64,000 nucleotides of DNA, taken from the NCBI GenBank assembly GCA_903813345.2, contig CAIIXF020000008.1, positions 2,861,341 to 2,925,340 on the forward strand, given 5' to 3'. The DNA comes from Owenia fusiformis. Lineage: Eukaryota > Annelida > Polychaeta > Sabellida > Oweniidae. Positions 5,176 through 34,866 of this stretch are shown here, piece by piece (the stretch's first letter is position 1; every line of letters begins with the position of its first letter). The notes below the pieces were generated by a model. It searched no databases. It was not told the DNA's origin and saw nothing but the letters and a program-made list of their open reading frames with translations. A program made the position numbers and the translations under genes.

Positions 5176-6488
5176 GTTTTCTTACTTCTTGCTCTCTTGC
5201 GTAACCAGGATGAGTCAGACGAGGTAAAACTTTTAACATCCTTTCGGAAATATTCCTATATCAATGTTCAGTTGTACATTATTTGTATATTTCTACAATT
5301 TTTAATCTTAGGCCATCAATTTTTGATTCAATTTCGAATTTTGAATTGATCTCATCACACAAACGCGCTTGCCTTGTTGCTTTAGTTGAACAGCTTTGGA
5401 AATATTTCCGCCTCATCGCTTTTTTCTTGCAATTGGCTACGCCACTGTTGCTATTTTCTTTTTCTTGAAAACAGTTTTATATCTTGTCATCTAATGGAAA
5501 TATGATATAATTATATATAACCATTATATACCGTTGACTGATAAACTGATTATAAATGCATACTGCACTATATGATTTATCAACATTTATATATTCGGTA
5601 CAAACCAGTTGAATGATAAGGCTGTAGAATATGAAACACGACACGTACATTATGATCAAACTCTCATTGCGATGGCTACAGGTTGAGTGCAAGTTCTACA
5701 CAAATTCAATTCCAAGTAAAACCAGTCAGAAAGGAACACTTGATATCAATATACACCTACAACAATACGTTATTAATCTACATGGGATGTCAGTTTTAAT
5801 TACATTCCTTAGATTTATGGCCACTTGCATTCCTAATATTCGGATTTCTTCGAAGTACTTTTTAGATTGTTATCCGTTGCTTTGATATTTCATATTTCAT
5901 TTACGTATTCTAGAATGAAGTCGTGCATCTACTGAAGATTTATGAACTGACGCAATCTGATGTAATCGTGGGAAAGTGCTTTATACAATTCTAGTTTACT
6001 TAAAATGTCTGATAGATATCCGACTGTATATTCTTACTGTTAGACTTTGATGAAGTACCAACGTAAAAGGTTTCTTTTAACACTATCAACAACATGATTC
6101 TAGCCATTTGCAACACATAGCAACGGGAAGAACAACGTGATAGAGAGCACAGATATATTTGGTGCAACAAAAAGTATTTACGTTTCGGAGAGTGATCACT
6201 TGTGAGTGAATTGTATTATATTAATTAAAGCACTTTTTGGAGCGCTGCTATGTTTGTGATTTTCATTATATTTAACTAAATCAAAGATCGTTATTTCTAA
6301 ATGGATGAACATGTTTATTACTCTCTTGTGGTTACACATTTAGAGAGAATTAAGTATTGCTAGATATCAAAAAGAGATCTCAAATGAATGGAAGGTACAA
6401 TGGAAGATCTAAATCATACTATTTTTGCAACCAATGACTTTTGTATGATGAATTAATCTTGCAGTTATTTCGAATATAAGTAGCAACT
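5176..6488. other. Non-coding stretch upstream of the GPCR
   Basis: AT-rich DNA with no supported gene. It should contain the promoter and 5' UTR of the GPCR that starts at 6489. I see no unambiguous TATA box or initiator that I would assign to it. Confidence 0.4.
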
Positions 6489-7562
6489 ATGTGTTTTATT
6501 ATGGACAAAACAGATTTAAATTCGTCATCCATTTACGAATCTTCAAGGAATCTAAATGCGTCGTATTTGGACGAGCAAGAAGGATCCATTTTGTTACAAT
6601 ATGCAAAGGCAACATTCCACGCCATCGTTGGAATAATTATCATTGTGGTCAATGTTATTATCATAGTTGTCATCGCCAAGACAACCAAACTCCAGAATCC
6701 ATCCGGGTATTTTATGATGTCACTCTCTGTGGCGGATTTAGGTGTCGGTTTGTGTGTACCCTTCACCATATACTCTGCATTTCACCATGATTGGCCCTTA
6801 GGATCATGTCTGTGCAAGATATTAGGCGCTTGTCTATGTATCTGTGTCGGATCTTCAATATGGTCGATATGCGTTTTGAGTTTTGATAGGTGTTTATCAT
6901 TGATTGAACCCCTGAAATATGGAGTGATTATGTCTCCCAGGATATACGTATCACTGATTGTATTCAGTTGGCTTTCTGCTACCATAGTGTTCTCTCTCCC
7001 GTTATTTGGCCTGGATACTTACCAGTACAGCCACAATGAGAGAATATGCGGACTTCCAAGTTTAGAGAATAGCACCATGATGGTTATCATCGCCTCGTAC
7101 TTGGCCCCTGCTCTTATCTGCGTATATATCTTCAATATGATAATTCTTTTGACAGCAATTAAGGCTAACAGGACCTGTAAACGCCTCTCTGAGTTGGACT
7201 TGCGTGGAAGTAGACGTCGACGCCTAAATGCATCAACCCGGAGAAGCAACATTAAAGCAGCGAAGGTTATATGTGGTATTGTACTCGTTTTCTCAATCAC
7301 GTGGATGCCTTGCATCATTTGGAATACACATCAAGCCGTGTCCGGCACCCCGATGCCCCCTTTAGCAGAATACATCGTAATGTGGCTTGGTATCTGTAAT
7401 AGCTTCTTCAATTTCTTCATTTACAATATCATGCATCTTGATTTTAAGAGAGGTTTGGAGAAACTTGGCTTTTGTAAGTGCAGCAGTGCTGTTAAAATAA
7501 ACAGTTTGATCAATTCACAAAGCATCAACGGGGTACACAGCAGTATCTTTAGATCCTCTTAG
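6489..7562 (+). CDS. Class A (rhodopsin-family) GPCR, orphan
   Basis: Intronless 357-aa seven-transmembrane receptor at the plasma membrane. Seen: an extracellular N terminus with NSS and NAS glycosylation sites; TM1 about 45-64; TM2 with the SVADL Asp at 83; TM3 with Cys109, likely disulphide-paired with Cys187 of loop 2; DRC at 133-135 in place of DRY; TM6 TWMP at 271-274 in place of CWxP; TM7 NFFIY at 308-312 in place of NPxxY; and a basic third loop (GSRRRR, about 240-245). Position 3.32 is Leu116, not Asp, so a classical aminergic receptor is unlikely. The ligand is unknown. An internal Met5 (MDKTDL) could also be the start. The length is normal for the class and there is no frameshift or stop. 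The gene converges with the C45 hydrolase gene; their coding ends are 386 bp apart. Confidence 0.93.
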   Translation: MCFIMDKTDLNSSSIYESSRNLNASYLDEQEGSILLQYAKATFHAIVGIIIIVVNVIIIVVIAKTTKLQNPSGYFMMSLSVADLGVGLCVPFTIYSAFHHDWPLGSCLCKILGACLCICVGSSIWSICVLSFDRCLSLIEPLKYGVIMSPRIYVSLIVFSWLSATIVFSLPLFGLDTYQYSHNERICGLPSLENSTMMVIIASYLAPALICVYIFNMIILLTAIKANRTCKRLSELDLRGSRRRRLNASTRRSNIKAAKVICGIVLVFSITWMPCIIWNTHQAVSGTPMPPLAEYIVMWLGICNSFFNFFIYNIMHLDFKRGLEKLGFCKCSSAVKINSLINSQSINGVHSSIFRSS

Positions 7563-7947: not shown

Positions 7948-8057
7948 TTATGGTTTATCATCCATTACTAAAGAAAATGGCAGGATAGCGATTGGTTCCG
8001 ATGTTTTGGGATTGTCTTTGTAAACCAGCACCCTTTTCCCGTTGAAGTCCATTACAG
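7948..8057 (-). CDS. C45 hydrolase last exon
   Basis: 110 bp: acceptor ATATTTCAG, then VMDFNGKRVLVY and a short tail to TAA at 7950-7948. The split codon T|CT completes the SVVMD-like strand typical of the family's C terminus. Confidence 0.82.
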
Positions 8058-11000
8058 CTGAAATATTGAAGAAATAACTATAATTTCCATTCATTTTTGT
8101 AGATCTGATTATCTATCCCGATCCCAGCAACTTTCTGAGACATTAAAGAGGGATAAAGAGTTTTCTCAAAACCACTACCCTAGCATTTTATAGGGGTGGC
8201 GGGAAAGTGTGCCTTTAGAAAACAGTTTATCCCGCCGATTCAGTGGATAACTGGGATAAATACATTTTCAAAACACTTTATCCCAGGATTCTTTGTAACG
8301 CCGGGATAAAGTGATTTGGAAAGTGTGTTATCCTAGCACTGCGTCAGAATTTTTGCACCAGGATAAAATGTTTTGAGAAAAAGATCTAAAGTAAATAGTA
8401 GATGCTATGAAGCCATCACACATTTTAATTTCTAGCTTATGATCTTTTCTTGTAATGATATCGAACAGCAAGTATTATACAAATTGCTAGTAGCACTGCA
8501 CCACAATATAACTTTTAAAATACTTACATGACCAGTTCGTGAACCACAGATGGCCTTCTCCATTTGCTCTATATATCGGGAAATCATCATGATTTTCATC
8601 TCCCATTATATTCAAAACACTTTCCAAATCATGTGGAGTTGGTAATTCATCAAATCTGGCTTGACGGATATCACAGAGTTGAACCCGTATACCTTTGTCA
8701 GGTAAGTGTTTTACACTGGAATATAGATACACATATGCCCTTTCATCAAAAATTATTTCATTCTCATTATGTCTAACTATACATGTAATCATCCTCTGAA
8801 TGACCTATTCGCTTTTACGCCAACATTTCCGTTTTTGAACGCACTGAATGAACTTTAAGCACAAGGATTGGTTAGTAATGGTAGTTGCCAATCTCCCTTG
8901 CTAGTACGCTGGAAAACTATAAATCAAATCCTACAGAGACGAGTCAAATTCCTTACATAGTAACTTACTGGTTGAAGTGTGAATATACACCTGCCGTTTC
9001 CTTTTCGATGATTTTATCTTGTGAGATAGTGACCACGCTTACAGATGACTTCGCTTCAGTGCTTGGGCCAACCTCAACATTGTATAAATTAGGGTCATCA
9101 ATAAAGCCTGCATTCACACTATAAGAACAACATATTTTTTATTAGGTATGATAAATTATTCGAATTACTTGTATATCATGGATGAACTCGCATATGACAA
9201 TTACTGTATAATTGACTTTGTATTGCATCTTGTACATTTTGATATTCATAGCATCCTTCATTTTTGCAACAGAGACGCACTCTCTGATTGATAAACTAGA
9301 AACTGCCTTTTCGATTCTTTTCCATTTGATGTGCATTTCTATTAATGGTATTGTTGAATTATGATAATTGTCGGGTAGGAGATTAAGACATTAATTTCTG
9401 TGTGAGTTCAAAGCTTTGCAATTGGATATTGGAGCTTTGTTTTCCTCATGGATAGTTGTGTTCTTACATGTTCATTTTTTCTCAAAGTGTTTAGTTGATT
9501 CTCTTATTACATCGAATATAGGCCACAATGGCAACAACGACCAAGTAATGCATAGGCTTTGTAACAGTATGAGGAACGTGCATGCTTATCTTACCAGAAC
9601 GTCCAGCCCCATCCAATACCATTGCCCTGGTCTGTTAAGATCCTCACTAGATCGTCCTTGTCCTTGGCATGCTGCATGGCACGATTCAGTATAAACGATG
9701 CTGCAAATCAATTATCAATAATGTAGTTGAATAATGATAAAAAGGTTAAAAAGCGACATAAGGTAGATACTTAAGTAGAGCTCGTGCCTACCAACAAAAT
9801 GTCTCACATGTTTCATTCTTAATTTAGATTGTCATGAAAATATAATAATAGTTTGAAAACTTCGCCTTTCTCTGGATTTGTGTATAATTTGGTATTGTTT
9901 TAAAGACTACAAATATTAAACTTAATGTAGTAATGTTTAAATTAAGTATCATATTACAGGGTGGTCAAAGAAATGGAATCCCTTAGGCTATTTCCTCATA
10001 TCTTTGTCATTTTATGAATTAACTCCCTGATATTTTACACATTTGTACATTTTTCAATGTCCTATCAGACTACTTCATATCATGTATATTTCATAACCAT
10101 AGACTGGTTGTGATAATGTTACAGCACTTGAAAGAACATGCTCCAATTGCCACTATTGCTCTGTAGGCAAAGCTGCACAGGTCGTCCAAAATGTTCCTAC
10201 CTGTGGGGACTGGGGATACGGCAAAGACAGAGTGTATAAGATTGACCCCAGGACAATTGCAGACCTCAAAAGTGAGATCATTCGTGTTATGCAGGTCTTA
10301 TCTGCTGACAAATGCATTAGGGTCATTGACAACTGTGCAGATTTGCCCACAGAACGATGATGGCCAAACCCGAAACATGCATGTTGTTCAAAACGCTGTA
10401 ACATTGTGACTATCAATCTGGTTGGTCATGAAATATGGCATACTGGTAGGAAATTGAATGATGTTACAATGTGTCAAATATCAGGGAGTAATTTCTTCCA
10501 ATCACAAAGATGTGAGGATAATGCAGGGTTTCAAGTTTTTGAGCACCCTGTACATAATTATTCTTATTATAGTTTTATATTATATATATTAGTTATATAC
10601 TAATGCGCAATGCAATGTATGGATAATTGAAAAGCTAGAAGAAGTCCAAAATGCAAAGGATTGCTATGACGTGGGAATTGTTGCATGAATAAGGGAAACT
10701 GTATGGCTGAAGCCATTATTGATTTATTTTGAACAACGCCAGGTTACGTGAATAAGCGAACCTGATTGATATCATTATTTATTCTTTGTTGAATATTTGG
10801 TCCATTCTTTAAGATTTAGTCCATTCTCTTAGATACCAAAGTATAACGAATATACCAATGATAGATCGACTTATATCATATTCGATAATCAGATAAGCAA
10901 TAAAATGATTATCTGATTTACGTGATTTTGGATGTAATTCACCGTTTAAGAAAACTAGGTCCTCAATATCACCACACATTCCATGTTGGTTTACATGAGC

Positions 11001-14000
11001 TGGGAGCTCAAGCATGGCTGAAATTATATAAATATATGGAGATGACAGCTTCATATAAAATGAGTGCTAAATGTGATCAAGAGTAGTAATAGTCATCTAT
11101 TCAGAATATTGGGCTCATAGAAATATCTTGTGACAAAGCAGTTGGTTGACCGAAAGGTTGGAAGCATGCATGTGTAACCCCAGAGAGGTGTAACCATGTA
11201 CAAATAAAAAATGCAGGGCTTGTAAAAATATATTTTGCCAAAGCAAACGATTGGGTAAAAGGCTGAGAGAATGCAGGTATAATCATAGACAGGTAAAGCC
11301 ATAGCTCATAAAAATGGTATTGTCAAAGCAGACGTTAAGAGGTTGAAAGAATGTGGTTGTGACCATACACAGCAATAACAATCGACTTACATAAAATAAA
11401 TAAATAGATAAATAAATACATAGATATGTAGAAATACAAAGCTAATGTGGAACAGAACACACAAATGTATGAATAAGGGGAACTGGCTGATGTCATTATC
11501 ACGTCATATCAGACTGATGTCATATCACACTAAGAATCGTTCAGTGATGAACTGGCAGATGTCATTATCTTTTCTTTAAAGAACGCTCGGTTTGCATGAA
11601 TAAGAAAATGGCTGACGTCATTATCAATTCTTTAGAGGACCAATGTCAAATATCAATTGGTAAAGTCCATTCTTTTAAATACCAAAGTATAACTAACCAA
11701 TGATGGATCGACTTATATTCCAGAATCGTGTAGGCAATAAATAGAGATTATCCTATATGAGGTTCAGGATATTGGGATTATCCCGAGGCCAATATAATAT
11801 ATCTGCCCGAGGGCCGTAGGTCCCGAGGGTAGATATATCATATTGGCCAAGGGATAATCCAAATATCCTGAACCGACTATAAGATGATCATACCATACCA
11901 TACCAACCACATTGTTCAATTGGCCAAAGTTCAGAAACTTTGCAACCAACCGTGGAATTATTTTAAAATATTCATGTCCAGTTTTGTATTCTTGTCCGTA
12001 GTCGGATTTTCGTTTACAGTATGCGAACGTTACAAAAAAGAACCAATACGGGAACAGCGATTATGACGTAGCGGGCAGATATACTATATCTGCCCGCTCG
12101 GAGCGGGACGTAAAGCTATATCTGCCCGCTGATGAAAATATAAGTTTTTACAAACCGGCTTTATGTACCAAATCACGTCAGATTATCAGTTAATGATTCA
12201 ATCTAATGGTGACACATTAAATTCTCGTATGTCCTATGTGAAGTTCCCGGGTGTATTATGTGATAATGTTAAAAAGCCCGGATGAGCCATATGATATTTC
12301 ATCTCAATATCACATAATGGCATGAAGACAATGTTGCTCTACTGATAGCATGCATTTGCCAGGATAAATGTTAAATGTACTTTCATTATCAAGACAGCTA
12401 TGAATTATTTTGTACTTGGAGTTTCTTATTTTTCATCAATAAAGATAAAACTTCTTGATTGTTCGGTTTGATTGTTTGGAATTATAACAGACTAGAATTG
12501 AGCAATAGTGGGCCATGATAAGGGGAATTTAGGCAGCCGATGTGGAAATAAACAACATTTCTCTCGTTTTAGTATGTTAAAACAGTATAGAGGACGATAT
12601 TAATTAATAATCTTTTGCAAAACATAGATAACAGTAATACAAAAAGAGACATTCAAAATGATGCAAACGATTACAATTTCCAGAATTTCGAAAATTTCAG
12701 CTGTTTTCATGTGATAAATGCATTATTACAAAAACAAGAGTGTGATCAAATATATGACCTCTCGGAAGAAATATAACACTCGGTTCTGCCTCGTATGACA
12801 TTTTTTCCTTGAGGTTTTATTTCAATATATCACACTCTCCATCTGTAATAATACTTTAACATATGATTTACGTGATTTTGGATGTGATTCACCGTTCAAG
12901 AAAACCAGTGCCTCAATATCACCACTCATTCCATGTTGGTTAACATAAGCTGAGAAGTCAAGTTCGGCTGAAATGATACATGAAATTAGGATAAGCGCCT
13001 TCTTAGGACTTGTTTTATGCACGTGCTCAATGTGTTCAAGAATAGCAATAGTCATATATTCAGAAAACAAGGCTTGTAGAAATGTCCTGACTCCTGAGCA
13101 GAAAACAAAAATGCAGGTATAGCCATAGGCATGCATAAATAAGAATACAGGGCTTGTAAAAATGTTGTGTGCCAAAGCAGACAATTAGCTAAAGGTTCGA
13201 ATGATGCAGTTTTAACCAGGGGTACATAACCATGGTTTGAGTCAAAGTAGATGGTAAACTGTTGCGAGTTTTTTTCATAGACAAGAACTTTATAACCATA
13301 GGTCTAGGAACAATAGTAATACAAATACGAGTACAGAGCTAACATATAGGATAAAGGGTAATAAGTATGCAAGGAAGCAAGATCAGTTATCATTGATTTA
13401 AATCTAATAAATATAACTTACTAATACCTTCGCAAGTAAAGAGCAATGAAATTTAATAAAGAAATACTGGCCTTAACTACAGTATACTATACTAATATAT
13501 GATACAGGGTGAGCCAAAAAAGGTAGCCCAAACAAATGTTAATAAACAAGTCATCCAGCATGGTTTTAAATTCATATTTGGCTTGACAGAACCTTGTAAA
13601 ATATTCTTAAATTCTATTGAACTTCATTGGTCTATTTCAAATGATCACGGTGTGATGGCTATACATAAACATCCTGAAAAATGCCAGTCTATGGAGGCAA
13701 ATTTGAAAGTACCGGATCACGCTCAGAAATATTTTGTGTAATGTATAATCACCCTTCTTGTCTTTTGTTTCAACTCTGATGATTCTGACGGGGCATAGCC
13801 AGGATTTAACATAGGGGTTCAACCCGGGGGCTCGTTTTTTAAGAAAGAGGGTCAAGTCGAATCGGAGGGTGGGGGGACTGTTTGCACGACCGAAATGGTT
13901 TTAATAAACCAATCAAATTACAGCAGAATATAGTACGTGCATCATCAAATAGCTAAAAGAAACGTGCTTTTAATTGTTCGAGCCAAAACAGAGCGTGGTT

Positions 14001-17000
14001 TGTTCCCGGCCTGTATTTTGTTGCTCTTTCAGAAAAGGGGGTTATTCCCAGCCAGGGGTTAGTTTCATAACGAAAGGAGGGTTCGAGTCGAATGGGGGGG
14101 GGAGGGTAGCACGAGCTCTACGAAACCCCTCGCACTGTGCCCATGCTTCTAGAGTTGTAGCCTAAGTGTGGACAATATCTTTGAAATAACTTATATTTTG
14201 ATGACACATTGTTACATCAATGATAAATGTACATTTGGTATTAAAACAATTTCCCATATAAGATTAACAACATAACAATATGCCATTTTAATATTTTTAG
14301 TGATAAGTCATATGGGGTGTCTTTATCACTATTATGTATATATGTTCACATGATTTTGATAAGCATGTTTATGGCCATAAAATCGTTACCATTAAAAGTT
14401 AAAACTAGATCAGTGAAACCTAGTAGAATGAAAGAACATTGAACAAGGTTTAATTGCGCCAAATCTGATTTTAAATCCATGTTTTTGGGCTCACCCTGTA
14501 AGACACGGTGATAATATATAGAGAGGAGTAGAGCAATGGTTGTGTCGCTACACACGTAGTTTAACGCCGGACCATAGTTTATTATCAAGGATTGCAAGAT
14601 CGTTAAGTGAGGACACCATGCCCATGCCAGAGGCCCAGGAACTCCCTTGCATTCTTGCTGAAATAACACAAATATTATTTGAAATTACCAAATGAGAAGA
14701 AAATAGGCACCAAGAACAGGAGTTGATATACAAGAGTAACACAAAGAGTAACAAAAGAACATTGGGAAACCAAAAGGCAAATGATTGACTGAAGCAAGGG
14801 GATATACTTTAATTAAATATCTGATTGGCAACTGAATATGGTGCACATTCCTTTTCAAAAGCACTAAATCCTGTTTGCAGTTGATGAATCAAGCTAAGAT
14901 AGAAAAGGCCCGAGAATAGGTGTAAGGGATAAGGTGATGCGACAGTGACTCTGTTATCGCGTTTCTTAATCAATTTCACTGCCAATTTCATAATGACCAT
15001 GCTCTGTATTAAAATATAGCATGGATATACTGTGTTCTGATTTGTAAGAAAATGATATCTAGATAGAATGCTTAATTATGTGTGAATTCTTTTTCCGGAT
15101 TATCAGTAAACATATTCGGCACTGGTTTCAGAGGCAGGGAAGCTTGGCATTTAAACCCTTGAACACATGCAATATTACACAACAACCTACTAAATAAACA
15201 ATGAGGGACCATTACATCTTGCAAGAACATCCCCTTTTCTGAAAAATATCCCAGTTGAAAGAAATCGTAGGAGAGAAGATTATTTGATTGAATTATTTTA
15301 CACCGATGTTCGATTGAATGTTCCCCAGTATTTAATAGTCTGCTCATTATTTATTCTTATATAAGCACCAGTTACTACTTAGAATTGCTATTTTCATTTA
15401 CTTGACTTCTTAGGTGGCAGTTCATCATTTGGGAACACCAAGACGTTAATATCCCCACACATCCCGTATTGATTAACGTGGGTTGGATAATTATTATTTG
15501 CTAAAATGAAAATAAGGCGAAATATGCATATTTTAATTTTCTCCATAAGATCGGGAAAAAGCTGAAATAATAAAATTATTAAAATCATGTGAGTCTACTC
15601 ATCCGTGATGCTCTGCACTTTGATCAAAATGTGTATACCGATTCAAAAGCCACCAAAGCAATGACGTTAAGCAAATAATCTGTAAATATATGAAAAACAT
15701 GCTAAAAAGTGCAACGTGAGTAATTACAGAGTTTTTCATTTATTCCTGCTCTATTGGCACAGAATACCACTGCATCTATGGTACCAGCAAATCCCTGACA
15801 TGTCACCCAACTTAGTAAGATGTTTCTAGCTAGAAAAGTAACATATTGGTTGATGTCTTTCATAGATAGAGCGACACCCCGTGGACTTCAGAGACTCAGA
15901 TTGAAAATGCCCATACTGATATATCCTTATTCAATATACTTCAATATCCACAATATAGCATGAATTATATCATAATAGAAAAATTGAAAAATCAGTCTCT
16001 TGCTTCTTCATCATAAATTTCCAAATATCATCTGAATTGAAATAAGAAGTACAAATCATATGCAATAATATAGACTTCTGCAATGCTTTATGATAGTATT
16101 AAAATCCATAGACATTTAAAAATGTATCTATGGTTACCTGGATGGCCCCCTATTGCTAATAATGTCTGTGGTGGCACTACATCTCCATTTGGCAGAGTGT
16201 ACTCTGCATAGTAGGCTAGTTGGATAAATGGTTTCATATTGGAAGCCCAGTCGTTGTTGTGGCCAATGATTTTCTACAATGTATAATGTTGGCTGAATAC
16301 TTAAAATATCAAGTAAATCAACAATTTCTCATGTATTCATACACTAGTCGACAAAGCTCATCTTAGCATAAACAGCTTCGGAATGGATTTGGTGTCAAAA
16401 AGGAATATAATTCAACATCGACATCCTGTGTCACAGTTGCATGAACAGTTTCTTGTACATCGACAGTTGTATTCTTATTCCATAGTTTTACAGTTAACAC
16501 GCCCTTATGTTACAATGTACGTCATGCAGTTTACATCAGGTAATTAGCATTTCTGTTAGAACTCCTCACCTCTTTGCCGTTGTTAACGAAAATGTCTGAA
16601 CATCCCTGAGCAGCTATGCTTTTCCCATATGCCGCAAAAATCTCTTTCTCCGCGAAGCCAAGTGCATCATCAAGTTGGCTCCATAGAATTGACATAATGG
16701 CCTGTAATTTTTATATAGTAGTTTTACTTTATTTACACGGCATTTATCGCCAAAAATCATTTACCTTGTTCAGATCGTATTTCATAGACTTTTCAGGATT
16801 GTGAATCTCAATACTTAATTTTGAACTCAGAAAATAAATACTTCATCTTCCAGGATTTAATCCACTAGAATCCTTCCTTTGAGGCATTGTTCCAGGGAAA
16901 GATATTATACATGTACTCTTGTAAGCCTAAATTTCTGAATAATTTTCCCAGTGTAAATTTTTAATGAGATATATTACAGTCGAAAAAACATTGTTCTTTT

Positions 17001-20000
17001 TAGTTACAGTGTTCAAATATTTACCTTTTCTTCAGTGATACCTGCTCCATCGGCAATACCTTTATTTTCATCAACATATTGCGGGTATTTTTCACGAGCA
17101 GCTTTCATCATACCCTCGCAGAAATCTCGCCCCTTTTTGGAATGATAGAACTCTAACATGGCAGACATCTTGGGCTCTAGCTCTTCATAGTAAGTTTGAA
17201 TTTCACTCTTGAAGAATTCGCCCTGCAAGTAAGACATTGTACTTAATTTATGTTTAGTCGATTCTGCCCTCCAGTTTGTTTTTACACACTGTACATCGAT
17301 CGAATAACCCAGATAGCATGGCAGGTGTAGTAGAAAGTATCCTAAAACTTGAATCCTCATCAGTCTTAGTAGATTAATTTTCATATCACCCTTGTGTATC
17401 TAATAGTTATGCAAATTAAATATGTCCTCTGTAAAAGAAAATGTTATCTGTCCAATTAGATTTCAAAGTTGATAATAAATAATTTTTGAAACCACATTTT
17501 AGATGCACTTTTACCTTCAGATTTCAAATATTATATCTAGACATACATGACTTTTTGAAATATTTATTTTAGATGTACTATTATTGCGTTCTTCGCTGTT
17601 GAAGATTGACAAGATTCTGGTGTCTGGGCTTATGGTATAACAGCGTTTATGCAGCTTGGAACCATAAAACCAATCACATAACTGGGCCGTAGTCAGGATC
17701 AAAAGTTTTCAGCCAAAATATTTTGAAATAAAATGTACAATTCCGTTGTTCAAAATGTCGGAGGAAGTTTCGTATTCGATTTTCTTCCACTGCATTTTAA
17801 CAGAGCACATATAGCAATATTAAAAGGAATATTTTCAGAATCATGCCAATTTTTCCCCTACAAGTGTAAGTATTCTGAAAAATAAAAATGAGATATGCCT
17901 AGCTACACCCATGTATGTATGTGATTTTTTCTGAAAACGTATTGTGGTGATGTTTTGTAGCACAGTGGCTGACCAATCTTACAACTAAGTTCAAAGTCAT
18001 TCTTGTTTAATGATAGTTTATATTGTAATCGGCTAGTGATTATTTGGATCGGACGATGAGGTATAGAACTAGCTGCACTTGTACCCATCTCACACTATAC
18101 CTGTTTTGCTTTACCACGTAAAACAATCATGTGTGCACTGGTACTCACCTAGTTACGCTGACGATACATCGGTTATATATATTTTACAAGTGGATCCAAG
18201 AGACCAAGTGGGCAAATCCATTATTTTGCAGGGGTGGCAGGATATACATGTATCAATTTTCACATATTCACATTGTCTTATTCATACCTGCCAACCTAAG
18301 ACCAAAAATTTGCGGTAGTTTTTTTTAATTGTGGTATTTTTGTGGTAGATCTTTTCAAAATGCGGTAGTTTTTGCAGAATTTTTCGACAAAATTGCGGTA
18401 GATTTTGAAAACAATTCGGTAGTTTTTGCGGTAGATTTTTGAAAAAACTACTTTTTTGGAAGTTTTTGAAAATGTGGTAGTTTTACGGTAGATTTTGAAA
18501 AAATGTGGTAGTTTAACGGTAGATTTTTGAAAAACTGTAGTTTTGCGGAAGAGTTTGTAAAATGCGGTAGTTTTTACGGTAGATTTTACGGTAGTTTGAA
18601 CAAAAATACTGTTAATTTCAGCAGAAATAAGGTAGATTTCCAAATACTTATGGTATATTTTACGGCCGTTCTTATAGAAAAAATTGAATTATAATAATGT
18701 ATTTCACGGTAGATTTCGGTAAAAATACGGTAGATTTTTACGGATGATTTACGGGAAAAAATGGTAAATTTTTTACGTTAGTTTGTCATTTTTACGGAAA
18801 AACGAAAAATTTACGGTAGATTCTCGTAAAAATACGGTAAGGATGGCAGATATGTGATTGGAGGCAGTTTTGATCAATTTTGCAAAGGGTTACTTAATTC
18901 TCATCTGTCTCAACAAAACGTACAGGAATATCCCAGAATTCATACAGTCATACTTCTCTTATGTAAACTATATCATTGATTGGCCAATGGTTCATCTATA
19001 ATCCTGGGAAATGACCTCTTCTGGAAGTAAAGCGTGGGAACATCTGATATGACCAGTTCCCATGCCAGTGTGTCACCTGTCATTTCTCTTGAATGATGTA
19101 CACTTTCCTCCAAAAGATTGGAAACAATTGTAGTACAGTAAAACCTGTATATTTGAACACTTGGCTAATCCGAACACTTCCTAATTTGAACATTTTTGGT
19201 CCCTTTTTCCTCCCATTGACTCAAATGTTAAAAAACCTTGAAATGTGAACACCTCCCAATTTGAACAGTGAACGGTAATGTTTGATAAATTAATCTATCT
19301 AATCTGAACACTTTTCACAAAATATCACATGTTCCATACAAAATTGCTCAAATATTTGAAAAAACCTTGAATGATCTCACTCATGGTGGGGCTTTCTAGG
19401 ATGACTCAATTCATTTGAATCGGATTTTCATGTCACTGTAATGCCATAAATATATGTAGTCAAAAGAACTATAAATATTTAATGAGAATTTGTTCCTATT
19501 TCTTCAAAATCCAAAATCTTGCAAATGCAAAACCTCACAATGTGAACACCTCCTAATCCGAACACTTTTAGCTGGTCCCTCGGATTAGACAGGTCTTAAT
19601 GTAGGTACAATCCCCTCTATATAAGTTACTGAAATCACTGGCTGGGAATTGGTGTTCGTTTACACACAGGTGTTCAATAGAGTAGACTCATGTGTTCACT
19701 GGGCATAGATCTTCACCAAAGAGGTGTTCATTATGACAGTTTTACTGTACTGAAATCAATCGCTGGGAATTCACTATATACAAAATTGAAATGTGTGTAT
19801 CATGCCACCCCTGCAAAATAATTGACTAGCCAACTTGGTCTCTTGGATCCACTTGCAAAATATACGTATATAACCCGATACATCAGCGTAACAAGATGGA
19901 AGAACTGCCTGGTTTCGTTTTCGGTAAGATATTTTTATTTCTCGATTCTACACCACTTATAAATCAAGTTGTGGACAATAATTTGGCTCAAACTTAAGGA

Positions 20001-22676
20001 AGATAGTCTAGTTTGAGAATATGCAGGCGGTTCTATGTTTGGTATATTAAAGCTGCTTAGCAATGTTATTTGGACCTATTTCTACCCATTGAGTTACTAA
20101 ATCAATCACTGGGTAATAAATACATATACATGAAGGCCGAGACATGTTATAGGTCATTAAGAATCACAATTCAAGGATAAAATACATGCTTCTTACCTGG
20201 CAAAAAGTAAGAGAAAGCTGTAAATCTGTGATTTCTAATTCTAGTCATGTTACCACAATAACTAAGTAGCTTACAGCAGTATATTTGCTTTTCTCATGGA
20301 CTCTAGATCCTCCTTTTTCTAACTATTGGGTTTGGGCAACGTGGCAATGTCCCTTAATCCCATAATATGAATATTAATTTGATAAATCTAAGGAATAATT
20401 TGAACTGGGAGGGAATTCTCCAATTTGTGTGATGTCATCAAAAGTTGTGTAATGGAGCACAAGGAATTTCTGTGGTAAATTATCTGAAAATAAATTCTCA
20501 ACTTAAATTGAGAATTCTCTGTTTATCCACAGAGTTAGGGGACATATCCTGCCTTCCCAGAAAGGTAAGATATTTTTCTTGGACAAAAAGATCAGGAATA
20601 TTGTCAAAAATCACTAAAAATCATGCTAGGCCGCTTTAACGAAGACGCAATTCACATATTTAGTCCATCGCTTTTGTTACGTTGAAATAAAAATATCTTA
20701 CCAAAACGAAGCCCGGAAGTTCTTCCATCTTGTTACGCTGACGTATCGTCAGCGTAACTAGGTGAGTACCAGTGAAAGGATGTGTCTCAAAAATGTACCC
20801 AAAATTATATGAACAGTAAAGATAAACTTAACCAAGAAATATTTTCAGATATTTTTGCATAGTCATATAATCAAAGCATTTAAGTTTTCTACCTAATACA
20901 AAATGTTTAGTTCAGTCTTGCCTTTTTAATATGCTTTAATATGCCCTTTTTATACCACATGTCCAATGTAACCTCTCATAGTTCGATGACAATGTGCATC
21001 CTTTACTACTACATTGTCCATCACATTTGATAATGTTTCTGGTGGAATGTTTCGAATTTTTCTTTAGATATTGGCCTGAATCAAGTTATTCTAGGTCTCT
21101 CTGCTTGGGATTAACATAAAAATGGTTCTTCAAGTTAACCCAGAGAAAAAGTCACAATGTTTTTATACAGGAAGATCAGACGTTCAAAAACAGCTTTAAT
21201 GGAAATTCTCGTATGGCCCTTGCTGCATGTTGAGGGGTTCAATCTTTTCTCATCCTTTGGATGATAATTTCAAATATATTTATATACTTTTCTCTATATT
21301 GTTTTAGAAAACACATCAGATACTTCTTTTGCTCTTGGTATCAGACATATCTTCGGAATGAAATGAAACATCTATCCAAACCTCTCATTGGAACAAAACA
21401 ACATAAACACAACGTATTTAGGTCTCTCAATATTGTAATTGTACAAAGGAAAGTTTGGTTGATTTTAAAAATGTATCTTGTTAATGGTTGAACTTAATTT
21501 TTATCTATTTTGGGGGGGTTTTGTTTGAAGTTTTTGCATACTTATTGTAAAATCAACCAAAATTTCATTTGTATAACTACAATATTGAGAGGTCTAAGAA
21601 AATGTTGTATATGCTATTTTGTTCCAACAAGGTTCGGAAAGACATTTTATTTCATTCTCAAGAATTGGTAGAAAGGAGCAAAAACAATTGCACTAAAAAA
21701 CAAAAAAATGTTAACAAAAACAGTTATATAAAATATATATAAATAATTTTTGCATTAAATTGTTGCCAATCGGTCAACATTACATAAAGGACCGTGTTTT
21801 TTACAGAATGTTTTCAATAATTGGTTTAAGAGGAAAACATTGTTGAGTTCAGTTCACCATATCGATACCTCTCCTTTCAAGATTTTCACACAATATATTT
21901 TTTATCAGAAAAGCTGCTTATTCGCAGATAAATTGAACCAGCAAATGCAATGACAATGTCATTCGTGCTTCTGCACGAAATTCGTCACAAGTCTCTAATG
22001 TTCTAATAAATACGAAGTTGAACACTCGGAATGATTGTTTTTCCATTATAACTTTTTAACGTATATATTAAAGGCTTCTAGTAATCATTATCCAAGATAG
22101 TCTGAATACCGATTAAAATAATTTTCACTTCAAACAGGTACGTCTTCCTTTATTTGATTTTCTAAAAAATTATATAAATAACTCTTGTCAATGTGAGGGA
22201 GCAAAATGATTTTAGAAGAATATTAAAATGTAATAATTGGCCATTAAAAACATGTACATGCATGTCATTACCGAACAAGATTGTTTGAATGATTATTTTA
22301 TTCCCTTTGGGCAGGAAATGATGAACCTCGTTTTTTCGAGGTATAGACTACCGAATAACTACATATGTCACAAACCATTATGTTTAGTAGCTAGTATTTC
22401 CTTAGAAACGTCTTATCATTAAAATGTGTCGAATCATATTTGTGCAAAGAAAAAAAGTCTGATTTCCGATTTCCTCTCTCTCTCTCTCTCTCGTTGAACC
22501 ATACTGTACGCCGTGTTTTATTTAGCGGTTCTGCGTAACTACATGTAGTACACCCGGGTTAGTATATCCCTGTGAAAATAGTAGACCGCAGGTTATATGC
22601 AAACTCATGAGCTCACCTTTTGGAAACCACATTCATAGTAGCTTCCTCGCAAGAACAGCAACGGCATGCGTGCCAT
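7948..22676 (-). CDS. Peptidase C45 / AAT-like Ntn hydrolase (tan / carcinine-hydrolase family), nine-exon gene with an alternative exon array
   Basis: Exons 5'->3': 22676-22617, 17222-17025, 16701-16570, 16273-16138, one of five alternatives (15829-15728, 15500-15402, 14657-14556, 12967-12872, 11017-10922), 9700-9595, 9118-8969, 8715-8528, 8057-7948. All junctions are GT-AG and all phases agree, giving about 391-393 aa, normal for the family. Seen: an N-terminal RGSYYECGFQKG block; GIADGAG (about 77-83); GCSD with Cys120 as the expected N-terminal nucleophile after autocleavage; GHNNDW at 134-139, the family's GHN/RNxDW signature; and the C-terminal DDFPIYR block. Family members cleave or form amide bonds (insect tan hydrolyses beta-alanyl amines; fungal AAT makes penicillin G); the substrate here is unknown. 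No signal peptide, so probably cytosolic. The promoter is not defined. Confidence 0.85.
8130..8375. repeat. Short degenerate repeat, GGGATAAAG motif
   Basis: Variants of GGGATAAA(G/T), AAAACACTTTATCCC and their complements recur about every 40-60 bp in the last intron of the hydrolase gene. No coding content. Confidence 0.5.
8528..8715 (-). CDS. C45 hydrolase exon 8
   Basis: 188 bp: acceptor TATTCCAG, donor T|GTAAGT. Encodes VKHLPDKGIRVQL, RQARFDELP and DDFPIYR, the usual C-terminal segment after the HxNH motif. Confidence 0.87.
8969..9118 (-). CDS. C45 hydrolase exon 7
   Basis: 150 bp, splicing TG|T and CA|T at its two ends. Encodes NAGFIDDPNLYNVEVGP and ends in GVYSHFNH, matching the family's N-strand, 'NVE' strand and HxNH motif. 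Confidence 0.87.
9595..9700 (-). CDS. C45 hydrolase exon 6
   Basis: 106 bp: acceptor GATTTGCAG, donor TCTG|GTAAGA. Encodes SFILNRAMQHAKDKDDLVRI, the family's xFLxRAxLxAxSxDEAxxxL block, then the start of the CVNAGF strand. Confidence 0.88.
9957..10550. mobile_element. Mariner-like element with long inverted ends and a transposase remnant
   Basis: TA target duplications at 9955-9956 and 10551-10552 flank inverted ends CAGGGTGGTCAAAG and (inverted) CAGGGTGCTCAAAA. The inverted similarity continues for more than 100 bp, through CCTCATATCTTTGTC and CTCCCTGATATTTTACAC. The interior, read on plus from about 10,180, has a decayed C-terminal transposase-like segment (PRTIADLKSEI, then CIRVID) typical of Tc1/mariner relatives and broken by stops. 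It sits in the intron between cassette 5e and exon 6. Confidence 0.75.
10905..11400. repeat. Duplicated segment with cassette 5e, copy 1
   Basis: The exon and the intron upstream of it on the minus strand resemble 12,860-13,360. Shared blocks include ATTTACGTGATTTTGGATGT, GGGCTTGTAAAAAT, CCAAAGCA and ATGCAGGTATA. Within 11,100-11,400 a unit of about 95-105 bp is itself repeated in tandem. Confidence 0.65.
10922..11017 (-). CDS. C45 hydrolase alternative exon 5e
   Basis: 96 bp: acceptor ATAATTTCAG, 2-nt start, donor C|GTAAAT. Encodes AHVNQHGMCGDIEDLVFLN. It is the cassette nearest to exon 6. Confidence 0.8.
11757..11880. repeat. Palindromic repeat
   Basis: GGTTCAGGATATTGGGATTATCCC pairs with the downstream arm GGGATAATCCAAATATCCTGAACC around CCCGAGGGCC...GGTCCCGAGGG. 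The long hairpin is followed near 12,070-12,130 by another short palindrome, TATCTGCCCGCT...AGCGGG. Probably a foldback MITE. Confidence 0.6.
12860..13360. repeat. Duplicated segment with cassette 5d, copy 2
   Basis: Partner of 10,905-11,400. Exon, donor and upstream intron blocks (ACAGGGCTTGTAAAAATGTTG, CCAAAGCAGACAATTAG) are shared, showing that cassettes 5d and 5e arose by local duplication including flanking intron. Confidence 0.65.
12872..12967 (-). CDS. C45 hydrolase alternative exon 5d
   Basis: 96 bp: acceptor TCATTTCAG, 2-nt start, donor C|GTAAAT. Encodes AYVNQHGMSGDIEALVFLN. Close sister of 5e, with Cys replaced by Ser in GMxGD. Confidence 0.78.
13505..14498. mobile_element. Mariner-type MITE, about 1 kb
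   Basis: TA duplications at 13503-13504 and 14499-14500 flank CAGGGTGAGCCAAAAAA and its inverse TTTTTGGGCTCACCCTG. Inverted similarity continues about 170 bp (for example GTGATGGCTATACATAAACAT against ATGTTTATGGCCATAAAA). No transposase remains. The interior has GGGG-rich blocks near 13,810-13,880 and 14,035-14,110. It lies between cassettes 5c and 5d. Confidence 0.78.
14556..14657 (-). CDS. C45 hydrolase alternative exon 5c
   Basis: 102 bp: acceptor GTTATTTCAG, 2-nt start, 1-nt end with a weak donor, C|GTGTGT. Encodes SWASGMGMVSSLNDLAIL, alignable to the other cassettes from GM onward. The frame meets a stop just past the donor, as expected of a real exon boundary. Confidence 0.6.
15402..15500 (-). 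CDS. C45 hydrolase alternative exon 5b
   Basis: 99 bp: acceptor CATTTTAG, 2-nt start, donor A|GTAAAT. Encodes THVNQYGMCGDINVLVF and an acidic/basic tail, one codon longer than 5d and 5e. Confidence 0.8.
15728..15829 (-). CDS. C45 hydrolase alternative exon 5a
   Basis: 102 bp: acceptor TTTTCTAG, 2-nt start, 1-nt end at T|GTAATT. It encodes a cassette with SWVTCQGFAGTID followed by VVF, alignable with NQxGMxGDIxxLVF of the other cassettes. The most diverged member of the array. Confidence 0.65.
16138..16273 (-). CDS. C45 hydrolase exon 4, GHNNDW exon
   Basis: 136 bp, starting in phase 0 after ACATTGTAG and ending 1 nt into a codon at CCAG|GTAACC. Contains KIIGHNNDW and then LAYYAEYTLPNGD. Its single overhanging G must be completed by an exon that starts with 2 nt, which all five alternatives do. 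Confidence 0.87.
16570..16701 (-). CDS. C45 hydrolase exon 3, catalytic Cys exon
   Basis: 44 codons in phase 0, ending GAG|GTGAGG. Contains AAQGCSDIF; the Cys after Gly is the predicted nucleophile exposed by autoproteolysis. Confidence 0.85.
17025..17222 (-). CDS. C45 hydrolase exon 2
   Basis: 66 codons, phase 0 at both ends, acceptor CTTACTTGCAG and donor AAG|GTAAAT. It encodes the helical N-terminal part with YYEELEPKM, the EKYPQYVDE region and GIADGAGITEEK, which is typical of the family before the nucleophile. The open frame continues upstream to an ATG at 17384, but that extension is intronic because the acceptor lies inside it. Confidence 0.85.
18296..18850. repeat. Minisatellite with GCGGTAGATTTT motif
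   Basis: Degenerate tandem copies of about 15-25 bp built from (T/G)(A/C)GGTAGATTTT and GGTAGTTTTT, with AAAAA spacers. The open frame on the minus strand here is a repeat artefact. Confidence 0.85.
19136..19747. mobile_element. TIR element nested in the foldback element
   Basis: TA duplications at 19134-19135 and 19748-19749 flank CAGTAAAACCTG and the inverse CAGTTTTACTG. The interior repeats CTAAT(C/T)(C/T)GAACACTT and AATTTGAACA. Resembles a pogo/Tc1-type MITE. Confidence 0.6.
21330..21665. mobile_element. Foldback repeat, copy 1
   Basis: CCTCTCATTGGAACAAAACA...CTCAATATTGTAATTGTACAAAGG...GGTTGATTTTA is mirrored after about 21,540 by AAAATCAACC...CAATATTGAGAGG...TGTTCCAAC. Further copies are at 39,515-39,775 and 60,840-61,120. 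Confidence 0.65.
22473..22493. repeat. (CT)n microsatellite
   Basis: Nine perfect CT units about 125 bp beyond the intron side of hydrolase exon 1. Confidence 0.9.
22617..22676 (-). CDS. C45 hydrolase exon 1 (start codon)
   Basis: Twenty codons from ATG 22676-22674 to AAG, then donor GTGAGC. It encodes the GSYYECGFQKG block that precedes the family's G-x-x-x-K helix. It joins in phase 0 to exon 2, which begins GEFFKSEIQ. The first intron is about 5.4 kb and contains nested repeats. The fit of motif, phase and donor is what fixes this exon. Confidence 0.8.
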
Positions 22677-28132: not shown

Positions 28133-30148
28133 CTATCTGTAAATGTTAAATGTTTTAGTGCCGTGTACCACCAAAGCTGGAGAGCCATCTTTGTTTACAG
28201 TGAAAGCATCTATTTGGTCGTTACATCGAAGCACCTCCGTGTTGACACTCAGACTCAGGTCTCTGCTGTATTAGAGGATGTTCTTGTTTCCCGATGTCTT
28301 AGCTAGGATATGTCCATACATAGCAGTCTGTACGTATTTTTCATAACTATGAAGAGTTCTATTGTGCCATGTCTTATGTTTCAATACCCCAGTATCACTA
28401 TACACCTTCAGTTCTCGATCACCCATAAAATACGCCACAACATCTCCGTTTATATTGAACACAACGTCACAAGGATAATCTAGCTGATCCAGTCTCATCT
28501 TCTCTTTGCCTGTCTGGTCTATGACGACAACAACCTTAGCAGCGTTATCCACTCCAGCGATGTCATTATTCTGGTTTAAAGCAATATGAGTATATCACAA
28601 AATCAGTGTAGACACTAAGGGGCTGAAACCTGCTGGTCAAAATGATATTACGGACCAGTTGCAATGTTATTTTCCTATACCTAGTGAAAAAATCAACTGG
28701 TCCGTATCAAAAGTAACCAGATAATGACCAGTGGACCGGCTGTTAATGACAACACTGCACAAAATGTTTTAACGTCTCTCGCGGGCTTGCAGTTTTTATC
28801 ATATAGTCCGATTGTCGTATTTGTTGCAATAAGGACATCATCTCTGTTGATTTTCGCAACAGATTTTGCTTCACTTGTACAAGTGATGTTAAGTTTGCTT
28901 CATTTGAAGCGATTGCGACATCATAAGATGATATGCCTGACCTCTCCCAGAAGCGAAGATACTCGACCCCTCTGCTTCGTGATTTTTTTCATCGGGGGCC
29001 GATAACGACATAGGTGTCTCCCTTACTTGGTCTTCTACATCCAAAGAGACGCTGTCCAGGTACTGTTCGAATGTCTGTTTGTCATTGGCGAAGACGTTAA
29101 TTTGGAAGGTTATTGATTTGTAAGGGCGCTGCCAATCGTTGGACTCCCATGCGGTGAATGTATCTTTCAGTTTATCCCTCATTTTAATCAGTTGGACATC
29201 TGATGTATCTGATTTTAGTATTTCCAAAAGTCTCCTCTCATTGTTGTACCGACCCAATCGTCCCGACATGTCGTTTGATATTGTTTCCAAAAGTTCCACT
29301 TGATACGCATAATTATTTTTCAAATTTTGCAAGCAGTCGGCTTTCTTGGCATCAATTTCGGCCTGGATCTTTTGAAAATATGCATGAATTGAAATCGCCG
29401 TTTCGTCATGGTTTGCCCTACATTCCACCATAGTGTTCTCGATGAAATCTATATAATCTACAAGCGGACGCTTAAAGTTCGATTCACCTTTTTTTAGAAC
29501 GTCACTGATATCATTACGAATTTCTGTAGCTCTGTCTTCGGCGTCGATAATTTCATGATCCCTATGCTTTACTGCGATACATTTTCCACACACGACCAGG
29601 TTGTCATCTTTGCAATATAAATCAAGTTCCTCTTTCTTGTGTTTTGGGCAGTAATGCGTCAGTCTAGCTTCCCTGTAAAAACTATCTGTCATTTCAGGGT
29701 CAGCTTCACCCACATCTTCGGCATTAATGAGCTCTGTTTGGTGTTTCTCTGCATCTTGTATATTTTTATGCAACTCTATGCACCTGTTACAGTACGCTTG
29801 ACGACATGTTTTACAGTTCCATCTGGCGTTCTCCTTAGTGTCGCAGCTACTGCACGGAACTACCTTTAAAAGAGCATCAATCTTGGTCAGCATATTTGCG
29901 ACCCGTTCATCGACTGGGAAACCTTGCACGCCATCAACGGGAATTTCCGTCAGTTTATCACAGACCTGGCACTGGAATTTATTGTTTATTATTTTCCCCC
30001 TTACGGAGTCTCCGAGACATTTCCTGCAAAAACTGTGATGACAAGGCAGTATGATCGGATCTTTGAAATCATCAGTACATATGGTACAGTTTAAACAATC
30101 GTCCTTCAAACGCTGAAGCAGCGCTGCAAACATTTCACTATTCGCCAT
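28133..30148 (-). pseudogene. TRIM-type RING/B-box protein gene with decayed C-terminal half
   Basis: The ATG at 30,148 opens a 419-codon frame. RING finger about 21-62 (CTICTDDF, PCHHSFCRKC, CQVC); B-box 1 about 97-135 (PCSSC, CNRCIELH); B-box 2 about 165-205 (YCPKHKKEELDLYC, CGKCIAVKH); then a coiled coil to about 330. The family includes E3 ubiquitin ligases of the TRIM2/3/56 type. After about residue 403 the homologous C-terminal propeller-like region continues in another frame (EAKSVAKINRDD, IGLYDKN), needing either a tiny intron or a frameshift. It is then interrupted by a short MITE (28,632-28,735), resumes at DIAGVDNAAK, meets an in-frame TAA at 28,271-28,273, and the same frame runs on (DAFTVNKDG) to a TAG at 28,133-28,135. 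I read this as a decaying copy, though the RING/B-box half could still be translated. Confidence 0.75.
28632..28735. mobile_element. Short MITE inside the TRIM-like gene
   Basis: CTGGTCAAAATGAT and ATAATGACCAG form the ends, with inner arms GGACCAGTTGCAAT and CAACTGGTCC. It splits the propeller-like coding region. Confidence 0.6.
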
Positions 30149-30469
30149 GGTTGCTAAATATGTTTTAAGTCACAAGACTTGATAAGAGTTTATACTCCAG
30201 ACACTATCTATCGGCAGGGTACTCAACACAATTGAAGGTCGTCGGCTTACGTGTACATTAACTCCCCTAGAGGACAAAGTATCGAAATTAACTCATGGTT
30301 TTATGTTATTAGCAAATCATTCAATTTTGAAAACTAAATTCAATTTCTCTCAAACCCTGTCCTTGCCAATTACTGACATGTCAAAAACTGGTCGAGAACA
30401 ATCTTTAGGAAATTTAAAAAATGACATTCATATGGACTGTACCACGCGTTTGTACCACTTTGTACCATT

Positions 30470-31105: not shown

Positions 31106-31295
31106 TACAGTCAATATTCGTTGAACTGAAAGTGTGTAATCGTAAAATATTGGATTTTAGTATCGCTGTATAATTATTGTATCATTTATTCATAAAATCA
31201 AAAATATGTAATTGTAACCATTTGAAGTATGCGGTAATGGATATGGTTAACTTGCGTCTAATTTCACTGTGATTACGCATGTAAAATATTGAGAT

Positions 31296-33446: not shown

Positions 33447-33465
33447 GAGGACTGAATTTAGAAAA

Positions 33466-34866
33466 GTGAATGCTGGTGTTAAACAAGGGGATCCAATGTC
33501 TCCCACACTATTCAATTTGTTTTTAAATGATCTGCCAGCGGTTATAGGTTACAATGACGCACCAATTTTACAAAGTTCAAAAGTAAACTGTTTGATGTAT
33601 GCTGATGATGTTCTACTTTTGTCTTTGAGCAGAAATGGACTTCAAAAGTCTATAGATAATCTTTCAAAATATTGTAAAGACTGGCATTTGTCAATTAATT
33701 TATCGAAAACAAAAATAATGAAATTTATTGGAAATGGTAGAAAATGTACAGAAATTTTTTATTTTGATGGGGATGAGATCGAGACGGTAAAATCATATAA
33801 ATACTTGGGTTTGACCATAAGTAGTTCAGGTACGTTTAGTAAATCCAAGGACTATCTGTATGACCGAGGATTAAAGGCAATTTATAAAATAAAAAGGTCA
33901 CTAGGCGATACAAGTTTAAAACCTTCAATAGGAATAAAGATTTTTGAACAATTGGTAGTTCCAATAATCTTATATGGATCTGAAATATGGGGCATGTCGA
34001 ATTACTTTTCTACAAAAGATTTGAATGAATGGTTTACAAATGGCAGACGATTTCCATCTGAGAAACTTCTGTTATCTTTTTGTAAATATATTCTTAAAGT
34101 AAATAAAAAATCAACAAATTTAGCAATTTATGGAGAGCTTGGGAAATACCCACTATATATAAATATATTCAAACAAGCTACTAATTTCTATAATCACATG
34201 TTAAATACGTCATACATCTTATTATCAGAAGCACTTACTACATCAAATGACTTATCAAAGATCAACAAGTCATCGTGGATGCTGAATTTTAAAAGTGTAA
34301 TGGATAAATTAGAGGTAGTATCATTTTCAGGAAATACTCCCAGCAATATCAATAATACTTTAGATGTAAAAGAATATACTATTGACGCATCCGAAGTTGT
34401 TTGTAAATCAAAAAATAGTTTTGAAGATTATTGGCGAAATCAATTGAATTCCGACCAGTGTCGCAAACTGAATACATACAAAATATTTAAAAGCAATTTC
34501 AGGTTCGAACCATATTTAGATTCAATTTCAAATGGGCATTTACGACGAAGTCTAACAAAGTTTCGTATCAGTAACCACAAATTAAAAATAGAAACGGGTA
34601 GATACGAACGCCCAAAATTAAAGATCGATGAAAGAATTTGCGAGGTTTGCAATTTAATAGAAAACGAAAAACACATAATGCGTTCATGTAAAAAATACAG
34701 TATATATAGAAAGAAAATGCTCGATAAACTTGTATCACACGGCAACCCAATTAAACACCTTTTCAACATGGAGGACGATTCACTTTTTTTCCAATATTGT
34801 ATGTCTTGTGAAAATAAAGAAATTGAAATTGTAGCAGAATTTATTCATAAATGTAATATAACATAG
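33466..34866 (+). pseudogene. LINE ORF2, second part: RT core and C terminus
   Basis: Continues the RT with GVKQGDPMSPTLFN and the catalytic MYADDVLLLS, then thumb and connection regions and a C-terminal Cys/His motif (CEVCNLIENEKHIMRSC) typical of this retrotransposon group. Only the frameshift at 33,425-33,431 separates it from the first part. Confidence 0.88.

Follow-up and report, generated by a model that had tools for sequence, protein, structure and literature searches.

In the annelid Owenia fusiformis, a gene of the C45 autoproteolytic acyltransferase/hydrolase family carries five homologous versions of its fifth exon, side by side between two constitutive exons. The gene, complete and of nine exons, lies on the minus strand of a 64,000-nucleotide stretch of contig CAIIXF020000008.1 (assembly GCA_903813345.2, positions 2,861,341 to 2,925,340 of the forward strand; contig C8 below), hereafter the window, and the five cassettes, C1 to C5, are a real exon array inside an intact C45 gene. 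The best explanation, to which a probability of about 0.6 is assigned, is that exon 5 of a single C45 gene was duplicated to give five alternative cassettes, one of which is used in each transcript, and that this choice tunes the specificity of the enzyme.

Under this explanation, exon 5 would have been duplicated in tandem several times, at different dates, and splicing would join exon 4 to one cassette and then that cassette to exon 6. The conserved Cys and Asp motifs and the greater part of the fold would be common to all the resulting isoforms; a single strand-plus-loops segment close to the active site would vary, and with it substrate preference. Restriction to one cassette would come from weak donors, either through dependence on enhancers or through competition, rather than from reading frame, steric spacing or the mixing of minor and major spliceosomes. 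The exons of the gene, in window coordinates and in order of transcription, are as follows (isoform scores are against the NCBIfam model NF040521; nt, nucleotides).

22617-22676, minus strand: exon 1, with the start codon, MARMPLLFLRGSYYECGFQK, phase 0; kept in paralogs A and B with donor GTGAGC
17025-17222, minus strand: exon 2; acceptor CAG/CAG/TAG at the equivalent position in the window gene (W), A and B
16570-16701, minus strand: exon 3, with the Gly-Cys motif of the autoproteolytic nucleophile
16138-16273, minus strand: exon 4, with GHNNDW; ends in phase 1
15728-15829, minus strand: cassette C1, 102 nt; isoform 80.2 bits
15402-15500, minus strand: cassette C2, 99 nt; most similar to exon 5 of paralogs A and B, which is single there; isoform 82.9 bits
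14556-14657, minus strand: cassette C3, 102 nt; most divergent, with the weakest donor (TAC/GTGTGT); isoform 84.4 bits
12872-12967, minus strand: cassette C4, 96 nt; isoform 83.3 bits
10922-11017, minus strand: cassette C5, 96 nt; one of a tandem pair with C4, either being the copy; isoform 82.6 bits
9595-9700, minus strand: exon 6, constitutive, 3' of the cassettes
8969-9118, minus strand: exon 7, constitutive
8528-8715, minus strand: exon 8, constitutive
7948-8057, minus strand: exon 9, containing the stop codon

The paralogs used for comparison are the following.

C8:2.646-2.657M: paralog A
C8:2.661-2.670M: paralog B (L003)
C8:18.35M: paralog L004
C8:19.01M: paralog L005

Five cassettes in one slot

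A sequence-only reading of the window had placed five cassettes between the end of exon 4 (16138) and the start of exon 6 (9700), and both boundaries and all five cassettes were recovered at those positions. Each cassette has its own AG acceptor and GT donor, consists of 2 nt, whole codons and 1 nt, and is stop-free in that frame, the lengths being 102, 99, 102, 96 and 96 nt. As that reading had supposed, any one cassette completes the protein: whichever of the five is inserted, translation runs uninterrupted from the ATG to the stop codon, giving full-length isoforms of 391-393 residues. It had also been argued that frame cannot force mutual exclusion, all lengths being multiples of three, and this holds: the skipped form stays open as far as the stop codon, and every one of the ten cassette pairs through exon 6, so frame does not police inclusion.

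A scan from exon 4 to exon 6 returned 34 open exon-like segments, 14 of them with the cassette motif, all boundary variants of the same five cassettes. In a control of 91 kb (both strands of 18501-64000), a single match to the motif was found among 346 open segments, corresponding to approximately 0.07 expected in the exon 4-6 stretch. Because the motif was written from the cassettes themselves, the scan establishes a low chance rate and the lack of a sixth cassette of that form, and does not constitute independent proof. The anatomy is that of a mutually exclusive exon cluster, with homologous neighbours of similar length and equal phase flanked by two constitutive exons; for C1 and C3, homology to the other cassettes is based on motif, phase, length and family score, and not on pairwise identity. 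An exon occupies the same slot in the same phase in all four paralogs scanned, measuring 99 nt in A and in B and 102 nt in L004 and in L005, which favours the preferred explanation. We infer that the cassettes are spliced, and one at a time.

Relationship to the C45 family

The assignment of the gene to the C45 N-terminal nucleophile (Ntn) hydrolases in the sequence-only reading is supported by NF040521, which all five isoforms match over model positions 12-312 of 313 (E 1.7e-22 to 9e-24). Paralog B reaches 91.0 bits, above the curated cut-off of 85, and L004 62.0. The fit of the individual cassettes was gauged against a skipped form lacking exon 5, which scores 76.7 bits with its match split in two, and against ten decoy isoforms in which another open exon-like frame occupies the exon 5 slot. 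The decoys, non-motif frames from the scan that were hand-picked by length (27-37 residues), half of them intronic in the window gene and the other five intronic in three paralogs, score 72.8-77.2 bits, all below every cassette isoform. We did not build the model from these cassettes; as the isoform scores exceed those of the skipped form and all decoys, C1 and C3, divergent as they are, have the look of genuine C45 segments.

The Gly-Cys nucleophile and an N-x-D-W motif are present, with G, C and D invariant in seven aligned rows, and these align with GC and QNWD of penicillin acyltransferase. Against Pfam AAT, the four isoforms searched score 17.7-21.2 bits, below the cut-off of 23.2. On these profile matches the relationship to the C45 family appears clear, while the window protein misses the formal cut-off. 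An exon-by-exon search of the genome with Pfam AAT gave one weak match, on contig C3, and none above cut-off; a pattern search for bacterial relatives matched 67 stretches, none of which was confirmed, and a single-sequence search of the PDB returned no matches.

The segment encoded by the cassette

In a profile alignment, the C5 segment HVNQHGMCGDIEDLV is aligned with GFNSAGVAVNYNALH of penicillin acyltransferase, a distant match (hhalign E 3e-4, probability 38%). The segment lies downstream of the nucleophile Cys and the N-x-D-W motif, which sit in constitutive exons 3 and 4, and the alignment suggests that it is close to the substrate pocket. One cassette position is Asn in C2 and C3, Asp in C1, and Glu in C4 and C5, and by a hand count along the alignment it falls on Asn167 of penicillin acyltransferase. 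A model of acid ceramidase, another Ntn amidase, builds the oxyanion hole from an Asn side chain and the Glu 225 backbone (PMC5915598), and a survey places the residues of mutually exclusive exons at or close to functional sites (PMC7954323). In line with that survey, the cassette may shape substrate choice.

A more specific version of the explanation is that the array acts as a five-way specificity switch, in which swapping the segment close to the active site, including the Asn/Asp/Glu position, turns one catalytic frame into five enzymes that act on different substrates by tissue or stage, the choice being made by competition among uniformly weak donors and not by RNA docking. This version is considered less likely than not.

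At a separate position, the Arg of the FPIYR motif in the window gene is replaced by Met in L004 and L005 and by Lys in A; its counterpart in the penicillin acyltransferase alignment is the Arg within SICRAYEEGK.

Constraint on the cassettes

Simulated neutral decay, run with substitutions only and no indels and assuming death soon after duplication, gave probabilities that a cassette keeps its frame and both splice dinucleotides of 0.13-0.15 at about 78% identity, 0.03-0.04 at 63%, and about 0.005 at 45%. Nucleotide identity to any other cassette (ungapped from the left end) does not exceed 47% for C1 and 39% for C3, yet both are intact, and the low probability of neutral intactness at such divergence suggests that both were functional during most of their history, though not necessarily today. 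For C4 and C5 the same argument is weak.

In each of the three pairwise comparisons among the window gene, A and B, no exon changes faster in amino acids than exon 5. Nonsynonymous changes per site in exon 5 (C2 or its A/B counterpart) and in the other exons are 0.131 versus 0.038, 0.150 versus 0.033, and 0.181 versus 0.048 (Fisher 0.0014, 4e-5 and 5e-5), the last codons of exon 9 being left out of two comparisons because of unequal lengths. The synonymous rate of exon 5 is also raised in the pair formed by the window gene and B (p 0.003), and not in the other two, which suggests that part of the contrast may reflect less gene conversion in this exon.

In an alternative account, C2 is the working exon, and C1, C3, C4 and C5 are copies that are not used or have recently died. 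The amino-acid identity of C2 is 74% to the exon of A and 71% to that of B, it has the best pyrimidine tract of the five acceptors (14/17), and exon 5 is single in all four paralogs scanned. The weak donors of all the extra cassettes, and the ratio of nonsynonymous to synonymous divergence (omega) of 0.58 between C4 and C5, would likewise be expected of unused copies. Yet the four extra cassettes all retain frame and both splice dinucleotides, the very divergent C1 and C3 nonetheless outscore each of the ten decoys against the family model, and the donor of C2 is no better than those of C4 and C5. An array with a single working member is an unlikely reading, and five alternative cassettes remain preferred.

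Splice signals and cassette choice

The donors of the cassettes are weak. Predicted pairing with U1 is -1.4, -1.8, -0.8, -1.9 and -1.9 kcal/mol for C1 to C5, against -9.6, -6.8, -10.2, -8.0, -8.0, -5.1 and -5.0 kcal/mol for constitutive exons 1, 2, 3, 4, 6, 7 and 8 (exact two-sided p 0.0025). The donor sequences are GTAATT, GTAAAT (in three cassettes) and GTGTGT, all of them GT, and the acceptors are ordinary. On the preferred explanation, weak donors of this kind would limit inclusion to one cassette. Exclusion by mixing of major and minor splice sites is not indicated, as none of the five cassette donors is of the minor type.

The exon 5 donor is also the weakest of those computed in each paralog, at -1.6 in A and -4.2 in B (other donors -4.9 to -9.6), -1.0 in L004 (others -5.1 to -7.4) and -4.6 in L005 (others -5.1 to -5.5; four constitutive donors in each of L004 and L005), the margin being small in B and L005. 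A facultative exon 5 may therefore be old in this family, or donor weakness may be unrelated to the array.

The same features are relevant to the possibility that several cassettes are used non-exclusively, with pairs included together or exon 5 skipped, producing in-frame insertion and deletion variants. Nothing in the lengths or frames prevents this, all ten pairs and the skipped form being open; the shortest intron between cassettes is 227 nt, which is no steric bar, and all cassette donors share the GT dinucleotide. However, part of the conserved Ntn core would be present twice if two cassettes were included and missing if exon 5 were skipped; the skipped form has a lower family score and a match broken into two; and tandem exon duplications often end in exclusive splicing (PMC6071210). 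Non-exclusive use is considered improbable, and one cassette per transcript is retained as the working explanation.

Origin by exon duplication

The sequence-only reading held that only exon 5 had been duplicated, and a search of six introns for relics of exons 2, 3, 4, 6, 7, 8 and 9 agrees with it. One of the 42 comparisons (exon 2 in the first intron) exceeded all 60 shuffles, which is the chance level, and in none of the other 41 was the score reached by two or fewer of the 60. As no relics of other exons lie between the cassettes, the exon alone was duplicated, and not the gene in tandem. A segment at 15299-15189 that weakly resembles exon 4 in protein (35%, E 7.9) was unsupported in the DNA comparison. 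That segment, together with the three near copies of this gene family on one chromosome, is what could be said for the cassettes being remains of tandem whole-gene copies whose other exons have decayed, but the absence of relics beyond chance, and a C4/C5 duplication unit of just ~330 nt around the exon, make that origin very hard to credit.

Within the ~330 nt shared by C4 and C5, pieces are 76-80% identical, rising to 86% over the exon and its edges; synonymous divergence (dS) is 0.25 and nonsynonymous divergence (dN) 0.15. The intron between them contains a repeat (~12186-11725) with many copies across the genome (2,146 first-look candidates, of which 40 were scored, the best at 94-96% identity over the longer piece of the repeat), and its age could help to date these two youngest cassettes. 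In a tree of the nine exon-5 sequences, which is weak because it rests on just 35 columns, C2 falls beside the exons of A and B (supports 0.66-0.71), C4 and C5 are joined (0.91), and C1 and C3 are joined (0.80) and placed as a pair with L004 and L005 (0.92). A transposon origin is unsupported for C1 and C3, each of which has one match in DNA searches of the genome, namely itself. By eye, apparent elements bounded by inverted CAGGGTG-like ends are present in the introns between C3 and C4 (14500-13500) and between C5 and exon 6 (10550-9950).

Points against the preferred explanation

Several observations weigh against five cassettes used one at a time, as do the assumptions of the decay simulation given above. 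All five isoforms fall just below the curated 85 bits, the amino-acid identity of C1 and C3 to the remaining cassettes is as low as 18-24%, the donor of C3 is very poor, and four paralogs do with one exon 5 each. As single-cassette paralogs also have a weak exon 5 donor, donor weakness is not specific to the array. A docking/selector system of base-pairing, for which the sequence-only reading had proposed a scan of the introns, did not emerge. Two arrangements were searched, each over four of the five cassettes; shuffles were as strong in 6 of 40 cases when the dock was sought in the intron of exon 4, and in 2 of 20 when it was sought in the last intron, a search within one species that has low power. 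The same reading had taken it as evidence against use if four of the cassettes had a dN/dS close to 1; applied to C4 and C5 alone, the comparison gives the 0.58 cited above on ~14 changes, which are too few, and the value is indistinguishable from 1.

Comparison with known systems

The kind of system is known, and what is unusual is the host gene, the count of five exons and the apparent lack of docking signals. Most of the Drosophila array genes named below are not known to encode enzymes. The nearest enzyme precedent is coq-2 of nematodes and other rhodoquinone makers, in which exclusive splicing of exons 6a and 6e has been demonstrated to swap active-site residues and substrate (PMC8659336). 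Both genes have alternative exons in one slot of an enzyme gene, but coq-2 has two such exons and the window gene five, the enzymes are unrelated, and the exclusive splicing and substrate switch are demonstrated for coq-2 and proposed for the window gene.

Exclusive arrays in Drosophila, including those of Dscam (48, 33 and 12 exons), MRP (8), Mhc (5 and 3), TepII (5) and Pfk (3), likewise have a number of homologous exons competing for a single position flanked by constitutive ones (PMC6071210). In that source, 102 of 126 fly clusters have only two exons, and arrays of at least five are rare, those of Dscam, MRP, Mhc and TepII being the only ones among the 126 (PMC6071210). Competing RNA structures are reported there for Dscam, MRP, Mhc, srp and 14-3-3zeta (PMC6071210), in contrast to the window gene, in which none was found in the two arrangements searched. 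To penicillin acyltransferase (2x1c, 2x1d, 2x1e) and the NF040521 proenzymes the window gene is related by profile, and it has the Gly-Cys and N-x-D-W motifs and a cassette core that falls on GFNSAGVAVNYNALH; those enzymes have one fixed segment in place of five alternatives, and the alignment to the solved enzyme is distant. Among the top matches to the terms searched in one open library, judged by title and abstract opening, there were no alternative exon arrays in penicillin-acyltransferase-like or Tan-like genes.

If the cassettes are used, they would constitute a natural experiment in which the influence of one short stretch of an Ntn hydrolase on specificity could be read, the single-cassette paralogs in the same genome serving as controls. 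They would also represent an exclusive array with no evident docking system.

Paralogs, the start of the gene and neighbouring frames

The proteins of A and B are 89-90% identical to the window protein, and their introns between exons 4 and 6 cannot be aligned with those of the window gene beyond short exon flanks. Synonymous divergence in the constitutive exons jumps from exon to exon, between 0 and 0.48, which is suggestive of gene conversion between copies. The exon 4 region of the window (16317-16104) is 95% identical over 215 nt to L003 2694-2908 in paralog B, with no synonymous change in the exon; as the genes are ~200 kb apart, inverted and otherwise more diverged, patchy gene conversion is again suggested. 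Near 8400 in L003, exon 9 of paralog B measures 109 nt to the aligned TAA, not 110, and the final residues are apparently frame-shifted.

No second array was seen in A, B, L004 or L005. A fifth, distant gene on contig C7, partly examined, has one exon-5-like frame, picked by eye (NYHGFAYSMNILMP); the motif scan at that gene, which is blind to the NYHGFAYSMNILMP form, gave two opposite-strand stretches in four boundary variants.

Exon 1 was located through conservation upstream of paralogs A and B. An alternative start codon at 17384, with a signal-like peptide, was rejected, the region being intron and exon 2 beginning at 17222. At least the first 26 residues of that peptide have weak matches dispersed over the genome at 15 further sites (15 of the 54 matches listed, E 0.004-1.7), and A and B have stops there yet retain the acceptor.

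Three further regions of the window contain long open frames that were characterised by eye:

6480-7562, plus strand: 360-residue frame resembling a rhodopsin-type G-protein coupled receptor, just past the last exon of the C45 gene and on the opposite strand
28889-30169, minus strand: 426-residue frame resembling a RING/B-box (TRIM-type) protein
31293-34866, plus strand: two long overlapping frames resembling the endonuclease and reverse transcriptase of a non-LTR (long terminal repeat) retroelement

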